64,000 nucleotides of DNA from Tupaia tana (lineage: Eukaryota; Chordata; Mammalia; Scandentia; Tupaiidae), in NCBI GenBank assembly GCA_026018925.1, contig JAKSZU010000004.1, forward strand, positions 112,868,989-112,932,988. Reading direction: 5' to 3'. The notes under the pieces are model-generated. The model was given only the letters and a program-made list of their open reading frames with translations, was not told the DNA's origin and did no database searches. Of this stretch, positions 1-43,048 are shown in pieces (position 1 is the stretch's first letter; each line of letters starts with the position of its first letter). A program made the translations under genes and the position numbers.

Positions 1-654
1 ATATATCCTTTCATTCAAGCCCCACAATGGCCTTGGGGAAAAGAAAACCACCTTGTGAGAGATGTTAGAAGTAATCCTGTTTCAATGAGGTTAATGGAAT
101 AATTTGCAAATATTTTCCAAAATCCTTACAAGTACGTATATTACCAAAACAAAATCATTAAATAGTTCAGTGTTAATAAGAATGAATAAGGACTGTCACA
201 CCAATTCAAAATTAAATGTTTATTTGAGCACTTTAACCTCGGTTCATCAAAACTCCATCAAATATTGTTTAAAGAATGTTAGTCTGTGAATTAGGTGGTG
301 AAACAGAGTCAATATGATGTGTAAATGTGTCAGTGGTTGTTATTTTCATAAGACATGAGGGACTATGAAGAATGCCATTGCCCAAAATAATCTTCCTCAC
401 CACATTGCCCATGACTAATAAATCTACTCTTTTTACAATAATAATTTAATAAATTAGTGTTATAATACTTAAATATGAATAAATGAGAGTTCTAAAAATA
501 AACCACAAATATATTTACTTATTAATTGATTAACACCTAGAACTTGCTAGTTTAACAGGAAACCTTTAGCCTGGGACTCAAACAATCAGTATTTTGTGAG
601 AGAAGAAAGTAAGAAAAGCTAAGGATAAAGATGGTGAGTCAGTATAACTGGATG
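1..654. other. Gene-free AT-rich DNA
   Basis: AT-rich sequence with stop codons in all frames. I recognise no gene, RNA or named repeat here. The 61-codon open frame at 104-289 has no protein-like composition and is probably chance. Confidence 0.6.
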
Positions 655-850
655 AGCAAGCAGCTGAGGATTTATAGTCTTGCCTGACACTTACTAGCTA
701 TGCAGATTTTTCTATACCTATTTCATCATCTGTAAATGGGGGAAATAATATTGCTTCCTTTATAGGGTTATATTATAGACACAAGAGAATGTGTCAAAGC
801 TCACAATACCTAGTAGATTGTCAACATTCAATGAACAGTACTAACTTGGT
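655..850 (-). repeat. MIR SINE fossil
   Basis: Diverged match to the reverse complement of the mammalian MIR core. Visible landmarks are an acttactagctatg block, then tttcatcatctgtaaatggg followed by ataatattgcttcctttatagggtt. Ancient and inactive. Confidence 0.6.
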
Positions 851-924
851 ATATTGTAATGTATCTCACGAAAATTCATGTGTTAAAATTTGGTGAGCTG
901 TTATAATGGTACTAAGAAGGAGGT

Positions 925-1307
925 GACTTACTCATAACATGGAATATTATTCTGTCCTAAAGAGGGATCAAATATTGAAAGATATTACAACGTGGGTGAA
1001 GCTTGAAAACATCATGATAAGTGAAAGAAATCAGTCACAAAAGACCACACATTATACAATCTCTTTCATAGGAACACAGGGAAACCTATACTTACTAAGA
1101 GAATGGGTTGTTTAGGACTGATCAGTAGCTGGGAGGTGGGAATATGAGGATACTGGCTTAAAAAGTATGAGATTTCTTTTTGAGGTGATAAAATGTTCTA
1201 AAATTGACTGTGATTGAACATATAGGTAAATGTGTTAAAAATTATAAAATGTGTACTTTATATGGATGAATATTAAGGTATATAGATTATATCTCAATAA
1301 AAATCTA
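925..1307 (+). repeat. Ancient L1 3' end (L1M-type)
   Basis: The order of words (cataacatggaatatt, cttgaaaacatcatgataagtgaaag, ttctttttgaggtgataaaatg, ending atctcaataaaaatct) is that of the 3' UTR of old mammalian L1M subfamilies. Heavily diverged, with no usable ORF. Confidence 0.65.
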
Positions 1308-1499
1308 GGGCATTGAATAGGGGGAGTTATCTGCCTATGAAAGCCCCACTAAATGTCTTTAAAACTATTATTGTTACTATTGCTATTGTTAATTTTATCT
1401 TGCAGTTGGAAACCTAAATCATAAAGATATGGATTTTAGGTTTAATCAAATTAGATTCAGCTTTGGCACATCACTGCCTAAAGAAAAGAAAATGCGTTC

Positions 1500-1622
1500 T
1501 TTTGAGGCTCAGCTGAGGTGACTCATGCTGCTGAGACACTGGTGCTCAGAAGCTCAGGTCATATGGGGTGCTCAGGTTTGGTAATCGGTCTAATCTAGGC
1601 AACAAGGGTGTAGTGATATGTG
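1500..1622 (+). repeat. Left half of an old SINE, split by the monomer array
   Basis: GC-richer block whose continuation lies at 7,696-7,795 beyond the array. Joining the flanks restores one SINE-like unit ending in an AAAT-rich tail. The words gtgtagtgatatgtgtcagtaatctt and then agctgggaggctgag resemble the 7SL-derived part of Alu-like SINEs, but the match is loose. Confidence 0.4.
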
Positions 1623-1633
1623 TCAGTAATCTT
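1623..1633. repeat. Left copy of the 11-bp flanking direct repeat
   Basis: tcagtaatctt, repeated exactly at 7,685-7,695 on the other side of the array. It is best read as a target-site duplication from insertion of the array. On the minus strand the empty site reads gtt/aagattactga, close to the L1 endonuclease preference TT/AAAA. Confidence 0.7.
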
Positions 1634-4600
1634 TTTTCAGTATCCCTTGCTGGCCAGAGGCTTGCAGGAGACGCTATTGCCTGCTGGCAGTCCAGGAAAG
1701 TCTGGGGGGAGAAGGAGGGCTAGGTGTTAACAAGGGAATGCAGGGAGTTCAAGAGAAAAGAAAAGAAAGAAAAAAAAAAAACCCGCCTCAAGGAGATCCT
1801 GGCTACCTACCTAGAAGGTGGAGTCTGGGGCCTGGGGGTCTGGAAGTGGGGTGGGGGTCAGAGGTGACCCTCCCTCAGTATCCCTTGCTGGCCAGAGGCT
1901 TTCAGGAGACGCTATTGCCTGCTGGCAGTCCAGGAAAGTCTAGAATGTGGAGTCTGGGGCCTGGGGGTCTGGAAGTGGGGTGGGGGTCAGAGGTGACCCT
2001 CCCTCAGTATCCCTTGCTGGCCAGAGGCTTGCAGGAGACGCTATTGCCTGCTGGCAGTCCAGGAAAGTCTAGAAGGTGGAGTCTGGGGCCTGGGGGTCTG
2101 GAAGTGGGGTGGGGGTCAGAGGTGACCCTCCCTCAGTATCCCTTGCTGGCCAGAGGCTTGCAGGAGACGCTATTGCCTCCTGGCAGTCCAGGAAAGTCTA
2201 GAAGGTGGAGTCTGGGGCCTGGGGGTCTGGAAGTGGGGTGGGGGTCAGAGGTGACCCTCCCTCAGTATCCCCTGCTGGCCAGAGGCTTGCAGGACACGCT
2301 ATTGCCTGCTGGCAGTCCAGGAAAGTCTAGAAGGTGGAGTCTGGGACCTGGGGGTCTGGAAGTGGGGTGGGGGTCAGAGGTGACCCTCCCTCAGTATCCC
2401 TTGCTGGCCAGAGGCTTGCAGAAGATGCTATTGCCTGCTGGCAGTCCAGGAAAGTCTAGAAGGTGGAGTCTGGGGCCTGGGGGTCTGGAAGTGGGGTGGG
2501 GGGTCAGAGGTGACCCTCCCTCAGTATCCCTTGCTGGCCAGAGGCTTGCAGGAGACGCTATTGCCTGCTGGCAGTCCAGGAAAGTCTAGAAGGTGGAGTC
2601 TGGGGCCTGGGGGTCTGGAAGTGGGGTGGGGGGTCAGAGGTGACCCTCCCTCAGTATCCCTTGCTGGCCAGAGGCTTGCAGGAGACGCTATTGCCTGCTG
2701 GCAGTTCAGGAAAGTCTGGGGGGAGAAGGAGGGCTAGGTGTTAACAAGGGAATGCAGGGAGTTCAAGAGAAAAGAAAAGAAAGAAAAAAAAAAAAACCCG
2801 CCTCAAGGAGATCCTGGCTACCTACCTAGAAGGTGGAGTCTGGGGCCTGGGGGTCTGGAAGTGGGGTGGGGGTCAGAGGTGACCCTCCCTCAGTATCCCT
2901 TGCTGGCCAGAGGCTTGCAGGAGACGCTATTGCCTGCTGGCAGTCCAGGAAAGTCTAGAAGGTGGAGTCTGGGGCCTGGGGGTCTGGAAGTGGGGTGGGG
3001 GTCAGAGGTGACCCTCCCTCAGTATCCCTTGCTGGCCAGAGGCTTGCAGGAGACGCTATTGCCTGCTGGCAGTCCAGGAAAGTCTAGAAGGTGGAGTCTG
3101 GGGCCTGGGGGTCTGGAAATGGGGTGGGGGTCAGAGGTGACCCTCCCTCAGTATCCCTTGCTGGCCAGAGGCTTGCAGGAGACGCTATTGCCTGCTGGCA
3201 GTCCAGGAAAGTCTAGAAGGTGGAGTCTGGGGCCTGGGGGTCTGGAAGTGGGGTGGGGGTCAGAGGTGACCCTCCCTCAGTATCCCTTGCTGGCCAGAGG
3301 CTTGCAGGAGACGCTATTGCCTGCTGGCAGTCCAGGAAAGTCTGGGGGGAGAAGGAGGGCTAGGTGTTAACAAGGGAATGCAGGGAGTTCAAGAGAAAAG
3401 AAAAGAAAGAAAAAAAAAAAAAACCCGCCTCAAGGAGATCCTGGCTACCTACCTAGAAGGTGGAGTCTGGGGCCTGGGGGTCTGGAAGTGGGGTGGGGGT
3501 CAGAGGTGACCCTCCCTCAGTATCCCTTGCTGGCCAGAGGCTTGCAGGAGACGCTATTGCCTGCTGGCAGTCCAGGAAAGTCTAGAATGTGGAGTCTGGG
3601 GCCTGGGGGTCTGGAAGTGGGGTGGGGGTCAGAGGTGACCCTCCCTCAGTATCCCTTGCTGGCCAGAGGCTTGCAGGAGACGCTATTGCCTGCTGGCAGT
3701 CCAGGAAAGTCTAGAAGGTGGAGTCTGGGGCCTGGGGGTCTGGAAGTGGGGTGGGGGTCAGAGGTGACCCTCCCTCAGTATCCCTTGCTGGCCAGAGGCT
3801 TGCAGGAGACGCTATTGCCTGCTGGCAGTCCAGGAAAGTCTAGAAGGTGGAGTCTGGGGCCTGGGGGTCTGGAAGTGGGGTGGGGGTCAGAGGTGACCCT
3901 CCCTCAGTATCCCATGCTGGCCAGAGGCTTGCAGGACACGCTATTGCCTGCTGGCAGTCCAGGAAAGTCTAGAAGGTGGAGTCTGGGGCCTGGGGGTCTG
4001 GAAGTGGGGTGGGGGGTCAGAGGTGACCCTCCCTCAGTATCCCTTGCTGGCCAGAGGCTTGCAGGAGACGCTATTGCCTGCTGGCAGTTCAGGAAAGTCT
4101 GGGGGGAGAAGGAGGGCTAGGTGTTAACAAGGGAATGCAGGGAGTTCAAGAGAAAAGAAAAGAAAGAAAAAAAAAAAACCCGCCTCAAGGAGATCCTGGC
4201 TACCTACCTAGAAGGTGGAGTCTGGGGCCTGGGGGTCTGGAAGTGGGGTGGGGGTCAGAGGTGACCCTCCCTCAGTATCCCTTGCTGGCCAGAGGCTTGC
4301 AGGAGACGCTATTGCCTGCTGGCAGTCCAGGAAAGTCTAGAAGGTGGAGTCTGGGGCCTGGGGGTCTGGAAGTGGGGTGGGGGTCAGAGGTGACCCTCCC
4401 TCAGTATCCCCAGGAAAGTCTAGAAGGTGGAGTCTGGGGCCTGGGGGTCTGGAAGTGGGGTGGGGGTCAGAGGTGACCCTCCCTCAGTATCCCTTGCTGG
4501 CCAGAGGCTTGCTGGAGACGCTATTGCCTGCTGGCAGTTCAGGAAAATCAGGGGGGAGAAGGAGGGCTAGGTGTTAACAAGGGAATGCAGGGAGTTCAAG

Positions 4601-7600
4601 AGAAAAGAAAAGAAAGAAAAAAAAAAAAAACCCGCCTCAAGGAGATCCTGGCTACCTACCTAGAAGGTGGAGTCTGGGGCCTGGGGGTCTGGAAGTGGGG
4701 TGGGGGTCAGAGGTGACCCTCCCTCAGTATCCCTTGCTGGCCAGAGGCTTGCAGGAGACGCTATTGCCTGCTGGCAGTTCAGGAAAGTCTGGGGGGAGAA
4801 GGAGGGCTAGGTGTTAACAAGGGAATGCAGGGAGTTCAAGAGAAAAGAAAAGAAAGAAAAAAAAAAAAAACCCGCCTCAAGGAGATCCTGGCTACCTACC
4901 TAGAAGGTGGAGTCTGGGGCTGGGGGTCTGGAAGTGGGGTGGGGGTCAGAGGTGACCCTCCCTCAGTATCCCTTGCTGGCCAGAGGCTTGCAGGAGACGC
5001 TATTGCCTGCTGGCAGTCCAGGAAAGTCTAGAAGGTGGAGTCTGGGGCCTGGGGGTCTGGAAGTGGGGTGGGGGTCAGAGGTGACCCTCCCTCAGTATCC
5101 CTTGCTGGCCAGAGGCTTGCAGGAGACGCTATTGCCTGCTGGCAGTCCAGGAAAGACTAGAAGGTGGAGTCTGGGGCCTGGGGGTCTGGAAGTGGGGTGG
5201 GGGTCAGAGGTGACCCTCCCTCAGTATCCCTTGCTGGCCAGAGGCTTGCAGGAGACGCTATTGCCTGCTGGCAGTCCAGGAAAGTCTAGAAGGTGGAGTC
5301 TGGGGCCTGGGGGTCTGGAAGTGGGGTGGGGGTCAGAGGTGACCCTCCCTCAGTATCCCTTGCTGGCCAGAGGCTTGCAGGAGATGCTATTGCCTGCTGG
5401 CAGTCCAGGAAAGTCTAGAAGGTGGAGTCTGGGGCCTGGGGGTCTGGAAGTGGGGTGGGGGTCAGAGGTGACCCTCCCTCAGTATCCCTTGCTGGCCAGA
5501 GGCTTGCAGGAGACGCTATTGCCTGCTGGCAGTTCAGGAAAGTCTGGGGGGAGAAGGAGGGCTAGGTGTTAACAAGGGAATGCAGGGAGTTCAAGAGAAA
5601 AGAAAAGAAAGAAAAAAAAAAAAAAAACCCGCCTCAAGGAGATCCTGGCTACCTACCTAGAAGGTGGAGTCTGGGGCCTGTGGGTCTGGAAGTGGGGTGG
5701 GGGTCAGAGGTGACCCTCCCTCAGTATCCCTTGCTGGCCAGAGGCTTGCAGGAGACGCTATTGCCTGCTGGCAGTCCAGGAAAGTCTAGAAGGTGGAGTC
5801 TGGGGCCTGGGGGTCTGGAAGTGGGGTGGGGGTCAGAGGTGACCCTCCCTCAGTATCCCTTGCTGGCCAGAGGCTTGCAGGAGACGCTATTGCCTGCTGG
5901 CAGTCCAGGAAAGTCTGGGGGGAGAAGGAGGGCTACAAGGGAATAGAAGGTGGAGTCTGGGGCCTGGGGTCTGGAAGTGGGGTGGGGGTCAGAGGTGACC
6001 CTCCCTCAGTATCCCTTGCTGGCCAGAGGCTTGCAGGAGACGCTATTGCCTGCTGGCAGTCCAGGAAAGTCTAGAAGGTGGAGTCTGGGGCCTGGGGGTC
6101 TGGAAGTGGGGTGGGGGTCAGAGGTGACCCTCCCTCAGTATCCCTTGCTGGCCAGAGGCTTGCAGGAGATGCTATTGCCTGCTGGCAGTCCAGGAAAGTC
6201 TAGAAGGTGGAGTCTGGGGCCTGGGGGTCTGGAAGTGGGGTGGGGGTCAGAGGTGACCCTCCCTCAGTATCCCTTGCTGGCCAGAGGCTTGCAGGAGACG
6301 CTATTGCCTCCTGGCAGTCCAGGAAAGTCTAGAAGGTGGAGTCAGGGGCCTAGGGGTCTGGAAGTGGGGTGGGGGTCAGAAGTGACCCTCCCTCAGTATC
6401 CCATGCTGGCCAGAGGCTTGCAGGACACGCTATTGCCTGCTGGCAGTCCAGGAAAGTCTAGAAGGTGGAGTCTGGGGCCTGGGGGTCTGGAAGTGGGGTG
6501 GGGGGTCAGAGGTGACCCTCCCTCAGTATCCCTTGCTGGCCAGAGGCTTGCAGGAGACGCTATTGCCTGCTGGCAGTCCAGGAAAGTCTGGGGGGAGAAG
6601 GAGGGCTAGGTGTTAACAAGGGAATGCAGGGAGTTCAAGAGAAAAGAAAAGAAAGAAAAAAAAAAAAAACCCACCTCAAGGAGATCCTGGCTACCTACCT
6701 AGAAGGTGGAGTCTGGGGCCTGGGGGTCTGGAAGTGGGGTGGGGGTCAGAGGTGACCCTCCCTCAGTATCCCTTGCTGGCCAGAGGCTTGCAGGAGACGC
6801 TATTGCCTGCTGGCAGTCCAGGAAAGTCTAGAAGGTGGAGTCTGGGGCCTGGGGGTCTGGAAGTGGGGTGGGGGTCAGAGGTGACCCTCCCTCAGTATCC
6901 CTTGCTGGCCAGAGGCTTGCAGGAGACGCTATTGCCTGCTGGCAGTCCAGGAAAGTCTAGAAGGTGGAGTCTGGGGCCTGGGGGTCTGGAAGTGGGGTGG
7001 GGTCAGAGGTGACCCTCCCTCAGTATCCCTTGCTGGCCAGAGGCTTGCAGGAGACGCTATTGCCTGCTGGCAGTCCAGGAAAGTCTGGGGGGAGAAGGAG
7101 GGCTAGGTGTTAACAAGGGAATGCAGGGAGTTCAAGAGAAAAGAAAAGAAAGAAAAAAAAAAAAAAAAAAACCCACCTCAAGGAGATCCTGGCTACCTAC
7201 CTAGAAGGTGGAGTCTGGGGCCTGGGGGTCTGGAAGTGGGGTGGGGGTCAGATGTGACCCTCCCTCAGTATCCCTTGCTGGCCAGAGGCTTGCAGGAGAC
7301 GCTATTGCCTGCTGGCAGTCGTCTGGAAGTGGGGTGGGGGTCAGAGGTGACCCTCCCTCAGTATCCCTTGCTGGCCAGAGGCTTGCAGGAGACGCTATTG
7401 CCTCCTGGCAGTCCAGGAAAGTCTAGAAGGTGGAGTCTGGGGCCTGGGGGTCTGGAAGTGGGGTGGGGGTCAGAGGTGACCCTCCCTCAGTATCCCTTGC
7501 TGGCCAGAGTCTTACAGGAGACGCTATTGCCTGCTGGCAGTCCAGGAAAGTCTAGAAGGTGGAGTCTGGGGCCTGGGGGTCTGGAAGTGGGGTGGGGGGT

Positions 7601-7684
7601 CAGAGGTGACCCTCCCTCAGTATCCCTTGCTGGCCAGAGGCTTGCAGGAGACGCTATTGCCTGCTGGCAGTCCAGGAAAGTCTC
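1634..7684 (-). repeat. Tandem array of L1 5'UTR monomers (about 40 x 129 bp plus about 115-bp spacers)
   Basis: The basic unit is 129 bp, running from ggtggagtctggggcc to aggaaagtctagaa, with copies nearly identical by eye. About ten blocks of 1-7 units are separated by an A-rich segment of about 115 bp. That segment carries gttaacaagggaatgcag, an (A)11-19 run and a gagatcctggctacc word. Spacers begin near 1,698, 2,716, 3,343, 4,100, 4,548, 4,790, 5,544, 6,588 and 7,086, with a shortened one near 5,915. The reverse complement of unit plus spacer matches, word by word, the 216-bp monomers upstream of the L1 at 31.7-39.4 kb (ctggccagcaagggatactg, ccaccttctaggtaggtag, cttgttaatacctagctc). The array is therefore L1 promoter DNA, sense on the minus strand, with no L1 body attached. 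The long open frames come from the unit length (129 = 43 codons), not from a gene. The 3' side has only a six-T run next to the flanking repeat. Confidence 0.9.
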
Positions 7685-7695
7685 TCAGTAATCTT
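7685..7695. repeat. Right copy of the 11-bp flanking direct repeat
   Basis: tcagtaatctt, identical to 1,623-1,633. It starts where the last monomer stops after aggaaagtct. Confidence 0.7.
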
Positions 7696-7795
7696 AACTA
7701 GCTGGGAGGCTGAGTCATGATGGCATGATGATACCCTGCCAAACATCAATCAATAAATCTCTGTCTCATAAATAATAAATAAATAAATAAAGCTC
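7696..7795 (+). repeat. Right half of the old SINE, with its tail
   Basis: Continues the SINE-like unit begun at about 1,500: agctgggaggctgag, then a gtctcataaataataaataaataaa tail. The tail gives the plus orientation. Confidence 0.4.
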
Positions 7796-7929
7796 AAAAA
7801 ACTTTTTTTTGAATAATAAAAGCAGCATGCATTCTCTCTACTGATTCCCTAGCCCTTAAATTTAACATACAATAGAAAACTGAATAGAATAGTGGTAGCT
7901 TCCTAAAATTAAGAATCAGTTAACAAAGC

Positions 7930-8048
7930 ATGTTGTTATTCCTCTCACTTTACAGAGAGGCAAAGTAAGGCCTAACTTGTCCACAACTCTCCCAAATTAA
8001 TGAAGAAGCTGAAATTCAGGTCTACTGACTGTTGCACCTATCAAGGGG
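7930..8048 (+). repeat. MIR SINE fossil
   Basis: The block actttacagagaggcaaagtaaggc, followed by tccacaactctccc and a cagg-tctactgact end, follows the order of the MIR consensus 3' half. Diverged. Confidence 0.55.
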
Positions 8049-8089
8049 ATGATGTCTTTCCACTGAAAGGCCTTTAAGAACTGACTAGA

Positions 8090-8495
8090 TGGGGGAAGTG
8101 AAGAGAAGAGGATAGAGAAAGATAATAAGTGAACAATAGAGAGGCAGGACATTAGTGAGAAACAGATATGGCTTATTAACTGTTGATGTTGACATGTATA
8201 GTATTCTCAACTGGATTTGTCTGAGAAGTATTTCATGATGGGCAAAGTATTTGTACAAGCAAAATGAGAAATAGCAATTGACTGTTTTAAAAAATAATTA
8301 GAATAATAATAATAATGATTGGGGAAAACCTAGAAAAGATATTGAATGTTGAAGTGGGGAGATTAATGTCTCTGTACTGACTGACATGCATGGCATTCCC
8401 TTTTGAAAAAGCAATGTAATACACTGTAAAGTTACATGTAATTCAATGTAATATAAAGAAGAATATGATGATAATAAAAAAATTAAAAAAATAAA
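8090..8495 (+). mobile_element. 5'-truncated L1 insertion (3' UTR only)
   Basis: L1 3' UTR tail ending in an impure A-tail. It is flanked by the 14-bp direct repeat aagaactgactaga at 8,076-8,089 and 8,496-8,509, so both ends are exact. It has no coding content. Confidence 0.8.
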
Positions 8496-8510
8496 AAGAA
8501 CTGACTAGAG

Positions 8511-8742
8511 AAGACGGGGGAGAGGGGTGGCACGGTAGTAAGGCAACTCTCCACAAGGTTGACCTACAAGGGAATGTTCCAGATTCATGCCCAACAATCT
8601 CCCTGAGCATGCCGGGCATGCAGGTGCCTATGATTCAGGGCTGCACAAGGCTGGAGGTGAATTGGAGCGCCAAGACCCCAGTTGGAGTATTCTCTCTCTC
8701 TCTTTATCACTCAATGAGAAGATAAATAATCTTTTAAAAACA
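8511..8742 (+). repeat. tRNA-derived SINE, diverged
   Basis: Begins with a tRNA-like part (ggtggcacggtagtaaggc as an A-box region), passes through a gagcatgccgggcatgc block and ends in a CT-rich stretch (tattctctctctctc) and an A/T tail. Same general layout as the common SINE of the window, but older. Confidence 0.6.
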
Positions 8743-9212
8743 AATAATGATGTTATCTATAAAGTCATTATTCACAAACCAGTGAGAAATCTTTTTATAT
8801 AAATCAGTAGTGCAAAATGACATCCTCCATGACCAAAGATAAGAGTCCAAAATCTTGTTCTTATTGAAGTATTTCACAAAAGAATTTGAGAGGGTGTTGT
8901 CTTTGCAGCACTGCATTTAATAGGCTTGAATTAGTCTTAAATTTTTTGTCCACGATTATACTAAGCCCAATTTTAGAAAGGTTAAACCTGGAGTTAAAAT
9001 GTTTCTGAAAGAATAGAGGTTAACGGGATTGGTAAGTATGTAGTGCCAAAAGAGGATCATGGAAGATTTTCTGCCGAGCGAGAGAAGTCTTTCCTGAGAC
9101 AATGCCAAAGGGAAGCATGAAGAATTTCTAGAAATTAATTTGGTAGAGGTGGAAAGGGAATGGGGAACTCAAATAGCAAGGCTGTAAATGTGAAATGAAG
9201 GTTACAGGCTAT
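8743..9212. other. Gene-free AT-rich DNA
   Basis: I see no gene, RNA or recognisable repeat here. Confidence 0.5.
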
Positions 9213-9545
9213 TGTTACAGTTCAGATGTCCTCTCCAAATTAATGTATTGGAACTTGATTGAATTGTAAAGGTGTTAAATGAAAACTTAATCCTTTCATG
9301 GTGTCCAAGGGTGGGGCCTTTGGGTGCGAAAAGGTCATTAGAGCAGGCAGAGCCCTTATGATTAAGTTATGGTGAGTTTATAAGCAAAGGAAATAAGACC
9401 AAAATGAGAGAGTTATATATGGATACAGACATGCTCTGTTTTGCTCAAAGTTCTGCCCTCCACCATTTTGTGATGCTTTTGAACTTTCAGCCAATAGAAT
9501 TGTTTTGTAATGAACCTCTATTCCCTTTATAAATCATCCAGTCTC
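9213..9545 (+). repeat. MaLR-like solitary LTR
   Basis: Contains the diagnostic run of MST/MLT-type LTRs: aacttaatcc, then a gtgggg-cctttggg block, then a ctctgttttgctcaaagttctgccctccaccat region, ending tttataaatcatccagtctcaaatattt. Old and without internal retroviral sequence. Confidence 0.55.
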
Positions 9546-10017
9546 AAATATTTATGCTAGCAATGCAAAATAACTGCTATGTCAAAGATTTGAGTTTTTC
9601 TCCTAAAAAATAATTTAAAAACAGTTTTAATGGAAAAAGATGTGATGTGGGTGAAATTATTCAGTAGGCTCCAGAGTAGTTTACACAGGACAAGATAAGA
9701 CCTTTGGCTAACATTGGTGGAAGGACATGGAGACAAGTGCATGGATTTGAGAGGTGTCAGGCAGACTGGATACTGTGGTAGATATAGGGGAAGAAGAAGC
9801 AGGTCTAAGGGATACTTCCCAGGGTACTACAAACATCTGTTGAATATCCCCCAAATGTCAGCCACTTTTCCAGATGCTAATACCACGGAAGAACAGAATT
9901 TAGGATTGGGTTAGTATGAAGATAATAGAAAAAGTGAACAGAATCATTGCTTAAATTATTTAAGAATGTTTGTATTTTTTCCTTCTTTTTAAAAAAAAAC
10001 CTTCTTTTGTTAAAAGC
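9546..10017. other. Gene-free DNA
   Basis: No feature recognised. The short open frame at 9,714-9,914 has no supporting evidence. Confidence 0.5.
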
Positions 10018-10457
10018 TAGCCATGAAAAAAAAAGAGACCCTGACATTTGATATAAAGTGAATGAATATGGAATATTTAATGCTAAGCAAAGTAAGCCAG
10101 AATATGAAATATAGGCATTGTATGTCCCTGCTTAGTATATACTGAATGTCTGCACTCTACAGAAGAAATGTTATTATTGGAAGGTATAATAGCAGAGAGC
10201 ACAGCTGTAGATACTAGAGATAGTATAGAAGGGAATAGGAAATAGAGGGCGAATATTAAGGGATGGGAAGGAGAGAATCAGGAAAAAAAAAACACTTTAT
10301 AGACACAAAAAAGAAAAGTTATCTGCTGATGATAATGTATATGCTAATGTCTTTGACTTGACTAATATGCACCACATTCATGCTGACAAAAACTATGTTG
10401 TACACTATAAAGATGTACAGTGATTAAATGTAAATTAAAAAAGAAATTTTAAAAAAT
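10018..10457 (+). mobile_element. 5'-truncated L1: end of ORF2 plus 3' UTR
   Basis: The first 100 bases align by eye with the last codons of ORF2 in the other L1s here (gctaagcaaagtaagccag, then attgtatgtccctgcttagtatatactgaatgtctgcactc). A purine-rich 3' UTR and an A-rich tail near 10,440 follow. No clear target-site duplication. Confidence 0.75.
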
Positions 10458-11464
10458 CTAGAAGTTTGAGGTTCAGACTTTCCTCCATAAAATTTGGGAT
10501 TCTTTGAACTTGTTGCTCCTCCAGGTGGGGCCTCTGTTCCCAACGTGCCCCAGCAGGGCCACTTCAGCTTTGGTTATTTTATGATTATTCCAGTCAACAA
10601 GAAAAGGAAAAGAAAGAAAAGTAAGGGACAAAGGATAAGGGAATGTCACAAAAGCAATCCCTTATGTCCATTTCAGAGAATTTATTTACTTGAACCAAAG
10701 AAGCTATAAGGGATGTTGGGAAAAGTAGTCTTTCTTTGAGGCAGCCATATGTCCAGATAGAAATTGTATTACTATGGAAGGAGGAAAGGATCCCTAAGGA
10801 TAACTCAGTTTCTACAGCAGATTTAGGCACAGGTGTTAAACAGCTTGAAGTCAATGGTTTTCATTTGATGAATCTTTTCATCTGTTGAACAAGAGATTTT
10901 TCTACCTGGTGACCTCTATGATTTCTTTTGGTTTTAGAGTACCTGGATTCTATCTAAACTTTGTTTACAATGAGGAACTTTATAACTGTTCATTTCTTAA
11001 AGTATTCATTATATTTAATTCGTTACAAATAAACACATTTCTTGAAGACATATAATACTCTTTCCCGCAATGATTTTCTTTGCTGAAGTTGAATTAACTG
11101 GAAAGTGATACCTTTACTGCCTTTTGATGTCTTTATGCATTTGTTTTGTATAAAATAAAATATTAATACAGTAGGAGAATGTAAAAAAAAGTAGAGGTTA
11201 GCTTATACTGCCTCTTTTTCAATTATAGAAACAGAAAAAGAGGGCAAACTTAAATATGCAAATTACGATCAACTTTATAAAAAGAAAAATTTCTAACCTC
11301 AGATTATAAAAAATTTTATTTATTAAACAAGCATTGAATAATATGCTAGGCCAGACACTGATTATACTATAGTTACTAATGTCATTTTAACTATTTCTCT
11401 AGTGAACAATGGATGAAAGTTATTTAAAGGAAGACAAAATCTTGTTTAATGGTAATATATCGCT
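10458..11464. other. Gene-free DNA
   Basis: Unassigned. A short stretch near 11,320-11,365 (tttattaaacaagcattgaataatatgctaggccagacactg) loosely recalls MIR. Nothing else supported. Confidence 0.45.
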
Positions 11465-11735
11465 ATGATTTGATTGTCCCCACAAAACTTTATGCCGAAA
11501 CTTAATTTCCATCAAAGTAATATTAAGAGGCATGACCTTTAAGAGGTGATTAGGTCATAGGTAATATTCTTTCATGGATAGATTAATACAGTAATCACAG
11601 GAGTAACTTACTGTGGGTATAGGCTACTGATAAGAATGAGTATCCATGATTTCTACTCTCTGTCTCAGGCACTTTCTTTCATCTTATTCCCTTCTGCTAA
11701 ATTTTCCAGCCTTCAGAATGTAAAAAAAATAAATA
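11465..11735 (+). repeat. MaLR-like LTR fragment
   Basis: tatgatttgattgtccccac near the start, ggtgattaggtcat in the middle and ccagccttcagaatgtaaa near the end keep the order seen in MST/MLT LTRs. It stops abruptly at the monomer block that follows. Confidence 0.5.
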
Positions 11736-11754
11736 AACTCCTGAGCAGAGCTCA

Positions 11755-12275
11755 TTCCCAACTCTAGCCCCCTGGCCAGTAAGGGACATTGAGGCAGGGC
11801 CCCAGCATCACTGGCCTTGGCCCCAATTCCAGCTCTGGCCCCAGCCCAGCTCCCCTAACCTCAGAGTCCTCCCCTGTCAGGAAGCTAGGCTGCTTTTTTA
11901 TTTTTCTCTTCTTTCTCTTGTTAATTTCCTACTTCTCCTTACTCCACAGGACAGTGCCCAGCTCTCCAGCAGAGCCCAGTTCCATCTCCGGCCTCCTGGC
12001 CAGTAAGGGATATTGATGCAAGGCCAGTCACTGGTCCCTGCCCCTTCCCAGCTCCAGCTCCAGACCCAGCTCAGCTCCCCCAACCCCAGAGCCTCCTCCC
12101 TGTCAGAAAGGACATCCCCCAGCTCTCCAGCAGAGCCCAGTTCCATCTTCAGAACGTTGACCGGTAATGGACACTGAGGTAGGACCAGTCACTGGCTCTG
12201 GCCCCAACTCCAGCTCCGGCCCCAGCCCAGCTCCCCCAATGCCAGAGCGCCCCTCTTGTCAGAAAGGATAGCCCC
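11755..12275 (+). repeat. Free-standing block of type-B L1 monomers
   Basis: Units of about 161 bp start at 11,950 and 12,111, with a partial unit before them. Each carries cagctctccagcagagcccagttcc, ctggccagtaagggaYaYtgag and a C-rich cagctcc series. The partial and first full units are separated by a T-rich spacer at 11,888-11,949 ending acttctccttactccaca. The same units and spacer sit upstream of an L1 body at 20.5-21.3 kb. Here no L1 body follows. The monomer core is related to type A through the shared words ctggccag and aagggata. Confidence 0.75.
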
Positions 12276-12714
12276 CATAAATTCATAATAATTTTTATGG
12301 TTCCACTGTATGAGGGAAAACTTAAAACACTGGTTTAACACATTCAGTATTTTTTGAGCATCAATCGAAGGTTATGTCTCATAAAATAGACACATAACTT
12401 GTTGCCTTTAACACTATGAAACACCTTCATTTATGGAGTTGATATGGGGACCAATAAAACAATAAACAAGGTTGAAACAATTTTCTTAGTCAGAGATTCT
12501 AAGGTACAAGGGACAATAGTCAAAAAATTCATGCTTGCTTATAAGAGTGGAAGTTATTTTAAGAAAATGGAAAATGGTTTTCAGAAATTATAACCAAACT
12601 TCAAAGCTAGTCTGTAAATCTGACTCTCCCACCAATTGCTATGTATATGTCCTGTGCTTTTTCTTTTCTGTATACTGTATATATCACCCATCCATTTCTC
12701 TGGAGGCAAGCTTT
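12276..12714. other. Gene-free DNA
   Basis: AT-rich with no recognisable content. Confidence 0.5.
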
Positions 12715-12730
12715 CCCTACAGCTCTCTTT

Positions 12731-13105
12731 TTTTTTTTTTTTTTTTTTTTTTTTGAGAGGTTTTTTCGCTATAGGGCGTGTGTGCTCACCAGACAGACAG
12801 AGAGAGACAGAAAGACAGAAAGCAAGAAATCACCCCCCAGGGGGGATGGTCATGCCGCAATCCCTTCTCCTCCATTCTCCTCTCGGGATCTTGGGCACGC
12901 ACGCACACGTGCCCGGCGTGAGTTTTAAGCCACCGGGTCCGGGACGCGAACCGCTGTCAACTACATGGGAGTCCAGTGACATAGCCATTACACTAACTGC
13001 TGGTTCCCTATACTTCATTAATTTGATATACAACAATTTTTCTCTTTACATTTGTTTCTTGTTTTACATATTTTTAAGCTTTATTTTGCTTTAACTGCTG
13101 GTTCC
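12731..13105 (-). repeat. tRNA-derived SINE (main family) with an 81-bp internal insert
   Basis: This is the reference description for the main SINE. In the sense direction it starts gggaaccagcagttagcg with a tRNA-like A box, then a B-box-like ggttcgNgtcc. Next come a gtggcttaaaactcacgcc word, a ggagaatggaggagaaggg word, a CT-rich tract, a gccctatagcaaaaacctctcc word and an A-tail. This copy has a tail of about 30 A (T on the plus strand) and is flanked by ccctacagYtctctt (12,715 and 13,106). Near its 5' end the word taactgctggttccc occurs twice, at about 12,995-13,009 and 13,092-13,106. The two copies enclose AT-rich DNA found in no other copy. Confidence 0.85.
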
Positions 13106-13120
13106 CCCTACAGTTCTCTT

Positions 13121-13764
13121 AATTGTGATCTCGTTTGTGCTTTGTTGTTACCATGGCCACTGTCTCTAGCCCACATATATCTTGATCTTATATCCCAAGT
13201 TGAAGTGTCTAATATTCTTACTAATTCAGTCTCTATGCCTAAAATACAAATTTCCCAGGGGAAAAAATATCAAATTGTCTGAGCTTGGGTCATAAGTTTG
13301 ATCCTGGTACAACCACCACAGCCAAACACAGAATCACATATTAAAGTCTATTCCTTTTGATATCTTACTCTGTCAAATAATCTATGAATGGGACATATGT
13401 AAAAATAAAATAATAGATATCACTAATATAATGGTTTAATTAGTACATGGAAATAACAGCTATACAAGCTATGTTTTTCCCCTTTCTCTAGGTTCAAATT
13501 GCAAGCATTTTCAATGCCATTAAATTAAGAGACAATTTTGACAAAAACTACCAAAAATTAAAGTTATATGTATAAGTATATATGTATTTAAATTATGTGT
13601 GTGCATGTCTATATATATGTGTGTGTTTGTGTGTGTGTGTATGTGCATATATGTATACCTTTGTGGGTGTAGGTGTGTTTTTCTTAGATAGTTTGTATTA
13701 GTTTTATCTATGTCTTAGAAACTATGAGGAAAATCTTCACAAAAACTGAACCTGATATTTGAAC
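13121..13764. other. Gene-free DNA with a TG-rich microsatellite
   Basis: AT-rich, with an irregular (TG)n/(TA)n tract at about 13,560-13,680. Nothing else recognised. Confidence 0.5.
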
Positions 13765-13778
13765 CAAAATGTAAATTT

Positions 13779-14044
13779 CTTTTTTTTTTTTTTTGGAGAG
13801 GTTTTCTCTATAGGGCGCGTGCACTCGCCAGACAGAGAGAGACATAGAGACAGAAAGCGAGAAATCACCCCCCAGGGAGGATGGTCACGCCGCAATCCCT
13901 TCTCCTCCATTCTCCTCTCAGGATCTTGGGCACGCACGCACATGTGCCCGGCATGAGTTTTAAGCCACCGGGTCTGGGACACAAACCGTGGTCAACTACG
14001 TGGGAGTCCAGCGACATAGCCATTACGCTAACTGCTGGTTCCCT
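13779..14044 (-). repeat. SINE, main family, young copy
   Basis: Full-length, close to the consensus formed by the other copies. Exact 14-bp target-site duplication caaaatgtaaattt at 13,765-13,778 and 14,045-14,058. Confidence 0.9.
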
Positions 14045-14243
14045 CAAAATGTAAATTTTGATTTCTTTATTTAGAAACAACCTTCACAAAATATGTGTCT
14101 GGCCTGACTACACATTTCTAATGTCTGATTATTAGCAGTCTCTTAAATGATTTATAACTTCATGTAGATATATTGCTTCTATCTTGCATTTATCTACATG
14201 TGGCTGAAATTGGTTTTAGAATTATTTATTTAATTTTATTTGC

Positions 14244-14390
14244 TATTATTATTATTATTATTATTATTAATTTTACCAGACAGAGAGAGAGGGAAAGGGA
14301 AACTGGGAAAGCAAACTGTAGGTCCAGGACTTATACCACAGTCGCCCACATGGGAGTCAAGCACCCAATCACCACACCACCTGCCGGCCC
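14244..14390 (-). repeat. Short tRNA-derived SINE (second family)
   Basis: Reference description for the short SINE. In the sense direction it starts gggccggcaggtgg, with a tRNA-like body of about 75 bp including gttcgagtcc-like B box. A gcttgctttc word, a short CT tract, tctggtcaaaatt and an AT tail follow. The tail here is a pure (ATT)n run at 14,244-14,270. It lacks the middle part of the main family. Confidence 0.75.
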
Positions 14391-14990
14391 GGTGTGACTG
14401 AATTTTCTGCAGACATACTGCTAGCAAATTTACAAAGGAGTATGGATGAACATGAATCAGAAATTCATGCTCTTTTAACACTATGGAAGACATATTGTTT
14501 GAAATCCCAAATAATAATTTATATTGAGTATACTAGTTTAGTGATGACCATAAAACAGTCAATAGGTTGTGGACTGTGTTTCAGGCTTTTCTTGGTCTTT
14601 GAGGAAGAAGAGGAGGTATTGATATAGTATCTTATGCTTCTTCCTACTCCTCTGCCAATTTCTTAGCCTGGAATTTCCACTGTGTTTCTTACGAAAGACC
14701 CATTATAAATTCAATTCTCTGATGAGCCTTGAGACAAATCCCTGCCTGCAGGTGTCTACCCCTATTATTTAAGGTAAGACTAATACCTCTTTTAATACTA
14801 GATCATATATATACTGTGTTTTGTTTCATGTGACTCTTTTTACTCCCATGATTTTTTAAGTTGTTTTAAATATGAAATCTCTCTTTTCCTCTCTCTTTCT
14901 CACACATCTGCCCATACACACGAACTTTCATACGTATTCTTTTCTAACTTTTAATTTTCTTCACCAAGAAGCTAATAATACTACTCACCA

Positions 14991-15069
14991 TTGAGCTGTC
15001 AGAAAAGTCATGGTGTACTTTTGCATAGAAAAACAGAAAAAGACACCATGACTTTTCCAACCAACCTAA
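14991..15069. mobile_element. Mariner-like MITE hairpin
   Basis: A near-palindrome of about 79 bp: gaaaagtcatggtgt on the left pairs with acaccatgacttttcc on the right, with loop word cttttgcatagaaaaacag. The right end, ccaaccaacctaa, resembles mariner-type termini. The left terminus is degraded. The copy at 51.4 kb shares the loop word and the stem core. Confidence 0.65.
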
Positions 15070-15140
15070 TATTTATGTGCTATGTGCCAGAAACTGTGCT
15101 TAGTGATTTATGTGCTTTATCACACAACATATGTTGAATA
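15070..15140 (+). repeat. MIR SINE fossil
   Basis: atttatgtgctatgtgccagaaactgtgcttagtgatttatgtgc follows the well-known MIR core order. Short and diverged. Confidence 0.55.
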
Positions 15141-15267
15141 AATACTTATCTAATTAAATTGAATTTAGTTGATGATGATGTTTAAAGTGTTTCCTTGAAA
15201 CATATAAAGTTCTCTTAATTATATGTTGTGAATTACTTGTGCACAACACTCAAATTCATAGATCGGC

Positions 15268-15610
15268 AGTTCTAACTCACAATGTGACTATATTTGAAGA
15301 TAGAAACTTTAAGGTAATTAAGGCTAAATGAGGAAATAAATGTGGGCCCCTAATCCAATAGGGATGATTTTAGTACAAGAAGAAAAAGAGACACCAAAAA
15401 TATATGAGCAGAGAAAAGAGATCATGTGAAGACATAAAGAAAAGGTGGCCCTCTATAAGACAAGGAGATAGACCTCTGGAGAAATCAAATCTGTTAACAC
15501 CTTGATCTGGGACTGCTAGCCTCCAGAGTGTAAGAAAATACATTTCTGTTGTTTAAACCACAGTCCTTGGTATTTTATTATGGCAACCCGTACAGAGGAG
15601 ACTAAGACAC
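15268..15610 (+). repeat. MLT-like solitary LTR
   Basis: Old LTR-like sequence with ordered landmarks: aatgtgactatatttgaagatag, gggcccctaatccaatag, a gaggaagagacacc-like block, tagcctccagagtgtaagaaaatac, ttctgttgtttaaaccac and a gtattttattatggcaaccc end. I assign it to MaLR/MLT-type repeats from memory of the family; the subfamily is not determined. Confidence 0.55.
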
Positions 15611-31004: not shown

Positions 31005-31684
31005 TTAAATATGGTTGATCTGATTGGCTCTTCAATGAATTACATCCAAGAAGTTCTCCAGTTGTTCTATTAGCATTTGTTTTTTAAACCTTGATGCTTC
31101 TTTAATGACATTTTGTAAAAATATTAGTCTTGTTTGTAAACTGCCTTGCACATGCTTCAGTAAAGTGAAGATTCTTTCATATTTTCTTCCTGGCTTTTGT
31201 ATCTCTTCATTATTTGTGCCTTTAGTTCAGTATTGACCTCTTCATGGCTTCTACAATGCATCCATTCCTTTCCTTTATTGAGTGAGGATGCTGGTATAGT
31301 CTCTTCAGCACACTGTTCTTTATCTCTTGGCCCTTCATGATTTTATAAAAATCCACCAATATTGAGGTCATTAGTTCCTAAATGGTCATGACCAAGAGCC
31401 TCTGTGTGATTTGTTGGTCGTTCCAATAAATTGGCTGGAGAAGATGTTGAAAATTCAGTGTCCATAGAATTTGGTGTGATTTCTGATGAAAGTTGGTCTG
31501 CAACATGATTTTCAACTACGTCATCTACTATTGAATCGTTAGTGGCTTCTGAAATTTTATGAAGAAGAAGGGGCTTAATAAGATCTGGCTGTGCTTGAGT
31601 CATAGGTGTAGGTGGTCCTTTTCCTGCAATATGATTGTTTACAACAGGATTCTACTGTCTGCCTCTTAAGAGTAGAGACATACA
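31005..31684 (-). pseudogene. INTS6P: INTS6 processed pseudogene, C-terminal part
   Basis: Continues the INTS6 retrocopy on the far side of the L1. Translation in pieces gives the region after GIPKRRRCMS, through TQAQPDLIKP and TNHTEALGHDHLGTNDL, to EQLENFLDVIH near the C-terminus. Breaks are a TAG at 31,652-31,654, a TAA at 31,343-31,345, later frameshifts, and a stop within the last residues (31,005-31,007). There are no introns, although the parent gene is split into many exons, so it is a retrocopy. The first 17 bases at the high-coordinate end belong to the L1 target-site duplication. Confidence 0.9.
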
Positions 31685-33940
31685 CCGAATACCTAGCTCT
31701 GCTATTCTCTCCAGATTTTCCGTGCCTGCCAGAAGGCGAGAGGCCCTCCTACAAGCCTCTGGCCAGCATGGGATACTGAGGGAGGGTGACCTCTGACCCC
31801 CACCACACTTCCAGACTCCAAGACCTCAGTCTTGACCTTCCAGGTAGGTAGATAGGATCTCCCTGCAGCGGCTTTTTTTTGGAAACCCCTCCATTCTCTT
31901 CTTAATACCTAGCTCTGCTTCTCTCTCCAGACTTTCCGTGCCTGCCAGCAGGCGAAAGGCCCTCCTAGAAGTCTCTGGCCAGCAAGGGATACTGAGGGAG
32001 GGTCACCTCTGACCCTGACCCCACTTCCAGACTCTCAGACCCCAGACTCCACCTTCTAGTAGGTAGAGAGGATCTCCCTGCAGCGGCTTTTTTTGGGAAA
32101 CCCCTCCATTCTCTTGTTAATATCTAGCTCTGCTTCTCTCTCCAGACTCTCCGTGCCAGCCAGCAGGCGAAAGGCCCTCCTACAAGCCTCTGGCCAACAA
32201 GGGATATTGAGGGAGGGTAACCTCTGACCCCCACCACACTTCCAGACTCCAAGACCTCAGACTCCACTTTCCAGGTAGGTAGATAGGATCTCCCTGCAGC
32301 AGCTTTTTTTTTGGAAACCCCTCCATTCTCTTCTTAATACCTAGCTCTGCTTCTCTCTCCACACTTTCCGTGTCTGCCAGCAGGCAAAAGGCCCTCCTAG
32401 AAGTCTCTGGCCAGCAAGGGAAACTGAGGGAGGGTCACTTCTGATCCCCATCCCCCTCTCAGACTTCCAGACCCCAGACTCCACCTTATAGGTAGGTTGA
32501 TAGGATCTTTTTGCAATGGCTTTTTTTTTTTTTGAAACCCCTGCATTCTCTTGTTAATACCTAGCTCTGCTTCTCTCTCCAGACTTTCCTTGCCTGCCAG
32601 TAGGCAAAAGGCCCTCCTACAAACCTCTGGCCAGGAGGCATACTGAGGAAGGGTCACCTCTGACCCCCACCCCACTTCCAAACTCCCAGATGCCAGAATC
32701 CACCATCTTTGTAGGTAGATAGGATATCCCTCCAGTGGCTTTTTTTGGAAACCCCTCCTTTCTCTTGTTAATACCTAGCTCTGCTTCTCTCTCCTGATTT
32801 TCCGTGCCAGCCAGCAGGTGAAAACCCCTCCTACAAGCCTCTGGCCAGCAAGGGATACTGAGGGAGAGTCACCTCTGACTCCGACCCCACTTCCAGACTC
32901 CCAGACGCCAGACTCCACCTTCTAGGTAGGTAGAGAGGATCTCTTTGCAGGGGCTTTTTTTGGGAAACCCCTCCATTCTCTTGTTAATACCTAGCTCTGC
33001 TTCTCTCTCTAGACTCTCCGTGTCTGCCAGCAGGTAAAAGGCCCTCCTACAAGCCTCTGGCCAACAAGGGATATTGAGGGAGGGTCACTTCTGACCCCCA
33101 CCACACTTCCAGACCCCCAGACCCCAGACTCCACCTTCTAGGTAGGTACATAAGATCTCCCTGCAGCAGCTTTTTATTGGAAACCCCTCCATTCTCTTGT
33201 TAATACCTAGCTCTGCTTCTCTCTCCAGACTTTCTGTGCCTGCCAGCAGGCAAAAGGCCCTCCTAGAAGCCTCTGGCCAGCAAGGGATACTGAGGGAGGT
33301 TCACCTCTGACCTACACCCCACTTCCAGACTCCCAGTCCCCAGACTGTATGTAGATAGGATCTCCTTGCAGTGGTTTTTTTTTTTTTTTTTTTTTGAAAT
33401 CCCTGCATTCTCTTGTTAATACCTAGCTCTGCTTTTCTCTCCAGACTTTTCTTGCCTTCCAGCAGACAAAAGGCCCTCCTACAAGCCTCTGGCCAGCAAG
33501 GGATATGTAGAGAGGGTCACCTCTGACCCCCACCCCACTTCCAGACTCCCAGACCCCAGACTCCACCTTCTAGGTAGGTAGATAGGATCTCCCTGCAATG
33601 GCTTTTTTTTTTTGGAAACCCCTCCATTCTCTTGTTAATACCTAGCTCTGCTTCTCTCTCCAGACTTTCAGGCATGCCATCAGGCGAAAGGCCCTCCTAC
33701 AAGCCTCTGGCCAGCAAGGGATACTGAGGGAGGGTCACCTCTGACCCCCCACCCCACTTTCAGACTCCCAGACTCCAGACTCCACCTTCTATGTAGGTAG
33801 ATAGGATCTCCCTGCAGTGTCTTTTTTTTTTTTTTCAACCCCTCCATTCTCTTGTTAATACCTAGCTCTGCTTCTCTCTCCAGACTTTGTGTACTGGCCG
33901 GCAGGCGAAAGGCCCTCCCACTAGCCTCTGGCGAAATCGC
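31685..33940 (+). promoter_or_regulatory. Type-A L1 monomers (about 10 x 216 bp)
   Basis: The word taatacctagctctgctt recurs about every 216 bp from 31,689 to 33,854. Each unit also carries ctggccagcaagggatactg, a gacccccaccccacttccag block, ccaccttctaggtaggtag and a T-run of 7-19. Units differ by a few percent to over ten percent by eye. The last unit stops near 33,922, at ctctggcgaaatcgcgcgcc, where the linker starts. By analogy with mouse L1 monomers this is the promoter; activity is inferred. Confidence 0.85.
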
Positions 33941-34307
33941 GCGCCATGCTAATGCGCGGCTCGCTACTTTTTCTTTATTTTTCTCTGTTGTTTTTCTTTT
34001 CATTTCATATTGTCCTTGCCTCCTCCTCTTTTACCCTGCCAGACAGACTAGACAGGTCTAGTGTCATATATTTGAAATTTCCTAGTAAGGTAAGTGTCTC
34101 TGGGATCCTACCTAGTACTGTTCCACCTGTGAAAAAGAGATACTGCTTGTTAGACACTTCAGTAGAGTTCCCCTCCTGAGAGCACAGTGGTAAAAACAAC
34201 AGAAGAGAGACTTCAGCAAACATCTATTCCCATCAAAAAGAAAGACTCTTACTCCTAGTGGGAGAAACGTTCTCTCAAGAGGTCTTTAAAAGGGAATTAA
34301 TCTTCCA
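33941..34307 (+). other. Non-monomeric 5'UTR linker of the type-A L1
   Basis: Begins near the CpG-rich gcgcgccatgctaatgcgcgg and ends at the ORF1 ATG. Homologous to 20,966-21,333 although the two L1s carry different monomers. Confidence 0.75.
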
Positions 34308-35267
34308 ATGGCTAGAAGTAGAAAAAGAGCCTCAGGTCTGAATAAACAAAGAAATATGTCTCCAACAAAGGAAGACGCCCCTCCATGTCTCGTAAATATG
34401 GAGGACGTTACCAAAATGACAGACACAGAATTTCGAACATTCATGGTGACCAAATTCTGTGAATTGGAAAAGAAAAGAGACAACGAACTGCAGGAAATTA
34501 GGAAGTCCTTCCAGGATATGAAAGAAGAAATGGATACACTGAGAAAGAATCAGGTGGAACTATTAGAGATTAAGTCTATAATACAAGAAATCAAAAACTC
34601 TCTGGAAAGTATTAAGAGCCGATTAGACCATGCTGAAGATCGAATTTCTGATGTAGAAGATAAAACCTCTGATCTAGAAAAAAACAACAAAAAGATCGAG
34701 AAAATAACTAAAAAACACAAAGATAATATATGAGAAATACTAGACTCTATTAGATGCCCAAACATCAGAATAATTGGCATCCCAGAAGGTGAAGACACTA
34801 ATACCAGAATGGAAAATCTATTCCATGACATCCTGGAAGAAAATTTCCCAAGCCTAGAGAGGCACGGAACCATCCGGACCCAAGAAATACAAAGGACCCC
34901 AAATAGAATCAACCCCAGAAGATCTTCCCCAAGGCACATCTTAGCCAGGATGTCTAACATCACAGAAAAAGACATGATACTAAAACGGGCAAGAGAGAAA
35001 CGAGAAGTAACTTACAAAGGCCATCCCATCAGACTAACACCAGACCTCTCATAAGAAACAATGGAAGTAAGAAAAGAATGGGAAGACATACTGAAAGTGT
35101 TAAGAGAGAAACAGTTTCAGCCAAGACTATTATACCCTGCAAGATTATCCTTCATTTGAGAAAAAAAGATTAAAATCTTCTCAGACAAACAAAACCTGAA
35201 AGAATTCGCCAACACCAGACCAGCTCTTCAAGAAATCCTGAAGAAAGTACTGTTCCAGGAAAGCTAA
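34308..35267 (+). pseudogene. L1 ORF1 pseudogene
   Basis: Would encode an ORF1p of 319 residues: a basic N-terminus, coiled coil (about residues 50-140), RRM (about 145-240) and C-terminal domain. Translation stays in one frame, but TGA at 34,731-34,733 (apparent CGA to TGA), TAA at 35,052-35,054 and a TGA near 35,157 interrupt it. The natural stop TAA is at 35,265-35,267. RRM landmarks IIGIPEGE and RINPRRSSPRHI are intact. Confidence 0.9.
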
Positions 35268-35311
35268 AGAAGCAACAGCCAGAAACAAAGAAATAACAGG
35301 CAACTAAGACA

Positions 35312-38300: not shown

Positions 38301-39157
38301 AAATAAGACCTTCAAAGCACAGTTGATCATCCCCAAAATAGACAAGTGGGATTACATCAGACTAAGAAGTTTCTGCATGGCCAAAGACACAGTAATTAGT
38401 GTGAATCGACAGCCCTCAGAATGGGAAAATATTTTTGTAAATTTTGCATCAGATAAGGGACTGATAACCAGAATACACAAGGAACTAAAGAAGCTGTTTG
38501 GAAAAAAGATGATCAATCCCATTAAAAGATGGGAGAAGGAGTTGAATAAAATACTCTCTAAAGATGACATACAAATAGCCAAAAGGCATATGAAAAAATG
38601 TTCAACATCCCTCATCATAAGGGAAATGTAGATAAAAATGAGATACCACCTAACCCCAGTCAAAATGTCTAAGATTACAAAAACAAAAAATGATAAATGT
38701 TGGCAGGGGGTGTGGTGAAAGGGGAACTCTTTTACACTGCTGGTGGGAATGTAAATTGGTCCAACCACTGTGGAGAATAATTTGGAGATTCCTCAAAAAT
38801 CTGCAAATAGATCTACCATATGATCCAGTAATCTCATTCCTTGGTATCTACCCAAAGGACAGAAGAATTCTTCATTGGAAAGGTGCTTGCTCATCGATGT
38901 TTATTGCAGCACTATTCACGACTGCAAAGTCATGGAACCAACCCAAATGCCCTAGTATGAAGGAATGGATTGAAAAACTGTGGCACATATACTCTATGGA
39001 ATACTTCTCAGCCATAAAAACCAACAGAGCCCTGGCTTTTGACAGAAAGTGGAAGAATATGGAAGATGTTCTGCTGAGTGAGGCAAGCCAGGCTATGAAG
39101 GAGAGACATTGTATGTCCCCACTTAACATATACCGTCTGTCTGCATTCTATGTCTGA
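35312..39157 (+). pseudogene. L1 ORF2 pseudogene (endonuclease and reverse transcriptase)
   Basis: Starts ATG 44 bp after ORF1. Endonuclease landmarks are visible: QETH (35,448 region), [15 protein letters not shown] and SDHDGIKFE. The reverse transcriptase covers about 36,700-37,700, with [30 protein letters not shown] and [13 protein letters not shown]. The C-terminal cysteine-rich region lies near 38,690-39,157. Inactivating changes are a frameshift in the A-run near 35,415, TGA at 35,590-35,592, a frameshift near 36,835, one between 37,020 and 37,096, TAG at 38,629-38,631 and another frameshift before 38,690. The catalytic FADD box reads FAND, losing an aspartate needed for polymerisation. 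Confidence 0.92.
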
Positions 39158-39400
39158 AACTGATTGACTAACAGTTGAACAAACACAAGAGATGGGTGTG
39201 AATGTCAGATGAAGTGTATGTGGAGGAGTGGGGCCTAACGAAAGATATTTGGAGAAGGGATACAGAGGTACAGCATTGATGGGATGGGGAGGTGTGGTGT
39301 TATCTGTTGAAGATATGTCGATCAACGGGTCTGGGGAGAAATGTTCACATATCGAAATGGTCTCATTGTAAGCCAAACAGTATGATTGAAAGTATATACA

Positions 39401-39431
<31 letters not shown>

Positions 39432-39438
39432 TTAAAAA
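39158..39438 (+). other. L1 3' UTR and tail
   Basis: Purine-rich, with a ggagaagggatacagagg word, ending in (AAT)9-like tail plus A7 at 39,434-39,440. Its 3' UTR type also caps the deleted element at 26.8-27.1 kb. Confidence 0.8.
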
Positions 39439-43044: not shown

Positions 43045-43048
43045 TAGA

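Follow-up and report, generated by a model that had tools for sequence, protein, structure and literature searches.

SVA elements, which combine a VNTR-like body with A's at the 3′ end, are mobilized by L1. In the mouse L1Md elements (A, Gf, and Tf), the promoter consists of tandem monomers lying 5′ of the L1 body in variable number, and one promoter with 50 monomers was ascribed to unequal crossing-over (PMC6454616). Human spliced integrated retrotransposed elements (SpIREs) have undergone exact splice-type loss within the 5′UTR and were reinserted with target-site duplications (TSDs) at L1-type sites (PMC5860796). L1-derived satellites, such as the common cetacean satellite and PROsat, are tandem DNA of L1 origin (PMC6947457); further background is given in PMC13174262 and PMC4053949.

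We analyzed a 64,000-nucleotide stretch of Tupaia tana DNA (referred to as the window) that contains 6,051 bp of L1 5′UTR monomers (array 1; window 1634–7684, sense on the minus strand). Array 1 resembles the mouse L1Md promoters in being built of tandem units of the kind found 5′ of an L1 body. However, the sequence differs from that of the mouse monomers, the unit can carry a GT…AG segment, arrays of 85–185 kb sit on single bodies in this genome, and array 1 itself has no body. The exact GT–AG loss at many junctions of array 1 may correspond to that of SpIREs, although the segment before the body is kept in related L1s; unlike SpIREs, which end as L1 with poly(A), array 1 has no L1 3′ end. 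It differs from SVA in that no family was found, there is no separate 3′ module, and the monomers come from the L1 promoter itself, and the system differs from L1-derived satellites in that an L1 body still follows each of the three large arrays whose 3′ edge could be read. In a literature search conducted mostly without subscription papers, which makes for weak evidence of novelty, we came across neither a monomer-only array of L1 promoter units between TSDs nor an L1 promoter exceeding 50 monomers. Array 1, for which empty sites exist, is a clean example of L1 promoter DNA that moved without the rest of the element. Together with the giant arrays and the intron-like segment, it makes this one genome in which to test by what means L1 monomer arrays lengthen and whether satellite-like DNA can arise from L1 promoters.

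Array 1 is an insertion of L1 monomers without an L1 body

Unit parsing divided array 1 into 39 segments, one of which comprised two fused units, giving approximately 40 units. The basic unit is 129 bp long (ACTTTCCTGG…CCTTCTAG), and nine units are followed by an additional GT…AG segment of 109–116 bp (GTAGGTAG…CAG, with CTG in place of CAG in one of the nine). These segments, all on the minus strand, lie in the second-last unit (1702–1810) and at 2716–2825, 3342–3452, 4099–4207, 4549–4659, 4789–4899, 5544–5656, 6588–6698, and 7085–7200. In sense orientation, the array begins with GAGACTTTCC, in which an untemplated G and then AG precede ACTTTCC (7682–7684), and ends with …GGGATACTG, followed by six A's (1632–1637). 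The last monomer (1638–1701) stops after position 64 (GGATACTG), in agreement with the original prediction of a monomer broken off after ggatactg. As had also been predicted, array 1 lacks an L1 body, both by unit parsing and by BLAST with the body of an L1 elsewhere in the window.

The array is bounded by the exact 11-bp direct repeats noted earlier, TCAGTAATCTT on the plus strand, at 1623–1633 on the sense 3′ side and 7685–7695 on the sense 5′ side. To search for the empty site, the flanks were joined with one copy of the 11-mer, and this 209-bp query was compared with the 2.95-Gb genome. Eight matches were obtained, a count to be taken with caution because the search skips very common words: four half-matches from the array 1 locus and its inverted twin, two empty sites, and two weaker matches (69% over 5–187 and 81% over 4–65). 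The joined site was uninterrupted at C286:56273494–56273702 and C1197:25988176–25988384, with a 99% match, and approximately 600 bp from each empty site aligned full-length with the joined flanks at 3.2% divergence and with a single 11-mer. As the array is absent and the 11-mer is present once at both paralogous sites, array 1 is a clean insertion with a TSD, a feature of target-primed reverse transcription (TPRT).

The array had been thought to split one SINE. However, the flank is low-copy, as the eight genome matches indicate, nhmmer with the flank against the window and fetched loci returned only the twin and one match at E=0.78, and Rfam and tRNA scans of the flanks gave no match; a split SINE is therefore not supported.

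The empty site reads GTT/AAGATTACTGA (GTT/AAGATT), so that the opposite strand would have been nicked at TCTT/AA. This is one mismatch from a TTTT/A-type site, the target form of the L1-type endonuclease (PMC5860796), and bears out the predicted closeness to the L1 endonuclease preference. The tail of about six A's noted earlier held up only in part: the run of six is present at the minus-strand 3′ side, but two of the A's belong to the target repeat and one may be monomer position 65, so that only about three are untemplated. No AATAAA precedes the run. At the point where it breaks off, the monomer contains the same TACTGA as the target. A DNA fragment of a monomer array might have been captured at a staggered break, without RNA; the shared TACTGA, the tiny A-run, and the existence of large arrays of such DNA would suit this explanation. 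We consider it improbable, as the cut site, the A's on the sense 3′ side, the TSD, and the near-L1 5′ start would all have to be coincidence.

The monomers belong to an L1 family

A pattern search located 78 places in the genome at which an array-1-type unit is joined to the start of an L1 body; the monomers of array 1 belong to an L1 family. The window contains one complete-looking L1 (31685–39438, plus strand) with 10 monomers, each carrying the segment, a 49-nt partial monomer, and then the 5′UTR, ORF1, and ORF2 with stops. The element is flanked by AAGAGTAGAGACATACA at 31668–31684 and 39439–39455, a repeat read by eye. Its ten units are related to those of array 1 but more diverged. This L1 also breaks up a minus-strand reading frame (31640–41492), which we take to be INTS6-like and probably a processed copy.

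We then compared array 1 with 13 L1s read individually, three from the 78 places (L039–L041) and ten found via the 5′UTR of the window L1 (L029–L038, of which L029 is the window L1 itself and L030 its inverted twin). Their layout is units, a unit with the segment, a partial unit, and the body. The body joins the partial unit at 48–49 nt in 12 of the 13, and at 76 nt in L039 (near positions 1472–1549 of that locus). Array 1 shares this 3′ layout, yet its last unit reaches 64 nt and is followed by A's. One explanation of the shared layout is that the insertion was originally a complete L1, promoter monomers included, from which the stretch between a monomer and the tail was deleted later, and the bodies found on three large arrays are in keeping with it. 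However, a deletion would then be needed as a second event; it must have ended precisely at the A-run on one side and must predate an inverted duplication of the locus, because both arms share the junction; the last unit also extends to 64 nt rather than to the usual body join. We regard a later deletion as unlikely.

At the 5′ end, three of the 13 L1s (L032, L036, and L039) begin close to where array 1 starts (G followed by AGACTTTCC), with no more than about 15 nt ahead of ACTTTCC. The window L1 begins approximately 27 nt upstream of this motif, and most of the others start inside a unit.

Other monomers were observed in passing. A different, 125-bp monomer type (window 43047–43398) precedes another L1 ORF1 (43504–44505), and older units with weak similarity lie at 11894–12277. 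In two loci, L034 (upstream of 1187) and L111 (near 55–75), the monomers begin at the same point of an L1 3′-region sequence, TGTGGC[GA]CA; jumps or insertions may have occurred at this point in both.

The GT…AG segment reads like an intron

The segment is lost exactly, at one point, in 27 of the 38 junctions of array 1 and in 9 of the 12 junctions of the twin array. Among 855 junctions from 18 sampled loci, 470 showed exact loss, 252 kept the segment, and 133 were of other kinds, which look mostly like point variants. The splice sites of the segment ranked in the top 1.3–1.4% of the GT and AG sites of the window with a rough scoring matrix. Judged from its sequence, the 109–116-bp segment reads like an intron, and cryptic splice sites have been reported in mouse monomers (PMC9022269). 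At least one short junction was present in 11 of the 13 L1s read.

These results suggest splicing as the simplest cause, and somewhat more likely than not the origin, of the short monomers. One ancient deletion, carried from unit to unit by exchange, would likewise account for them. The segment ahead of the body was retained in all 13 L1s, and its donor GT is undamaged in the 11 inspected; this retention argues against splicing. The exactness of the loss in all three sets of junctions, the rank of the splice sites, and the mouse precedent argue for it.

A monomer-only RNA may have been the source of array 1

The original prediction proposed that the L1 machinery inserted an RNA made only of monomers. 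We favor this origin, followed by a change in length, and think it somewhat better than an even chance that an RNA from an L1 promoter was copied in by L1 proteins. The RNA would have started at or near the L1 start site, contained only promoter monomers, most without the GT…AG segment, and been cut short ahead of the L1 body, as suggested by the array's 3′ end 64 nt into a monomer. L1 proteins would then have copied it by TPRT at TCTT/AA, producing the 11-bp target duplication, and exchange or slippage between repeats would later have altered the number of units in place.

The insertion itself is secured by the exact TSD and the two single-copy paralogous empty sites. The L1-like cut site, the A's at the sense 3′ side, and the extra 5′ G point to the L1 enzyme, and the 5′ start near the ends of L032, L036, and L039 and the 78 monomer–body joins to an L1 promoter as the source. 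The 3′ end repeats the L1 layout of units, a unit with the segment, and a partial unit, and both junctions and some end-unit variants are common to both arms of the duplication. We infer the RNA step, the L1 enzyme, and the origin of the 3′ end from these features. Against this origin, only about three A's are untemplated and no AATAAA lies before them, the event is a single one, a start near the same point was found in just 3 of the 13 L1s, with the window L1 about 27 nt farther upstream, and the TACTGA in both target and monomer break could indicate a short-homology join.

The very short A-run directly adjoining the monomer, with no polyadenylation signal, also bears on another explanation, in which copying began on the poly(A) of a full RNA and, a few bases on, switched to monomers, either of that RNA or of a different L1 transcript; a monomer-only RNA would then never have existed. 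The other L1 hallmarks are complete, as such a template jump would leave them. The jump must, however, have skipped the whole body and left a junction without any mark, and we hold it to be an outside chance, if slightly ahead of DNA capture and later deletion.

The inverted twin shows a change in array length

The part of the window that contains array 1 (1–15426 and beyond) lies within a large inverted duplication centered near C642:112865227, with a spacer of approximately 6.6 kb. In the twin arm the insertion recurs with identical TSDs and with both junctions, but the twin array is 2,085 bp long with 14 units, compared with 6,051 bp and approximately 40 units in array 1. Next to the array the arms show 99.8% identity: about 7.7 kb on one side contains 3 mismatches and some gaps, and 2 kb on the opposite side a single mismatch. 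At the L1 5′UTR farther out they are 97% alike. Given such near-identical flanks, the length of the array must have changed after insertion, although its rate may be overestimated if gene conversion has kept the flanks similar. Growth after insertion had been put forward as an alternative to retrotransposition; a change in size is confirmed by the two arms, with its direction a matter of inference.

Both arrays carry C38T in the second unit and C123A in the third-last, and their interiors differ. This observation suggests that the inserted piece held several kinds of monomer, with and without the segment, and that the interior later grew, shrank, or was exchanged.

No family of bodiless arrays was found

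The original prediction compared array 1 to an SVA-like element. A 22-base monomer anchor with six A's within 30 bases, which covered A-runs starting at monomer positions ~65–95, matched only the array 1 locus and its twin in the genome; the stricter version with ten A's gave no match, nor did a second anchor, genome-wide, for A-runs at positions ~85–115. The exact-junction pattern with one mismatch allowed gave 26 matches, consisting of the locus and its twin (both exact) and 24 mismatched sites, which we treated as chance because a reversed-pattern control gave 34. At monomer positions ~65–115, the searches thus show one event, with no independent copies carrying their own TSDs and A-tails, and an SVA-like family is not supported. 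Array 1 looks like a single by-product rather than a new element family.

Giant monomer arrays are joined to single L1 bodies

The genome contains 1,573 exact copies of a 48-mer that spans the short junction, and all 18 sampled 10-kb loci (L011–L028) contain such units, including L011 with 5,000 N's and L017 with approximately 1.5 kb of other sequence. Three giant arrays were outlined by short probes, with continuity between the sampled places and correctness of the assembly assumed: 85 kb at C531:125778109–125863204 (L109 to L111; 16 of 16 sampled places monomeric), 185 kb at C1197:118292291–118477263 (L117 to L101; 17 of 17), and at least 132 kb on C1197 from 100767903 to at least 100900150 (L118 to L127; 11 of 11, one of which includes a retrovirus-like piece). 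All three large arrays with a readable 3′ edge run straight into a single L1 body, judged from 400 bp for the array of at least 132 kb. As L1 promoters, they greatly exceed the 50 monomers described for the mouse. A genome-wide satellite unconnected with L1 was therefore rejected for these three; the result does not extend to a fourth array, on C297, which has an N gap at that edge, to a second array on C531 (near 126.66 Mb), or to the small contigs made up of array alone. The 300 bases at the 3′ end of the giant-promoter L1 on C531 include a tail, but 8 bases at most are common to them and the 5′ flank; this element is not shown to be a simple insertion.

Transcription of a giant promoter would yield monomer-only RNAs, a natural source for array 1. 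More broadly, and only tentatively, L1 promoters of at least 100 kb with removable introns borne by their units might produce promoter-only RNAs that are copied elsewhere and seed bodiless arrays, which then expand or shrink. If true, this would be a route with an RNA step from a transposon promoter to satellite-like DNA.

At two places, near 1280–1750 of L086 (C297:70422251–70424000) and near 1–1460 of L017, the arrays adjoin retrovirus-like sequence, which we take to comprise a leader with a gag-like start and an LTR-like stretch.
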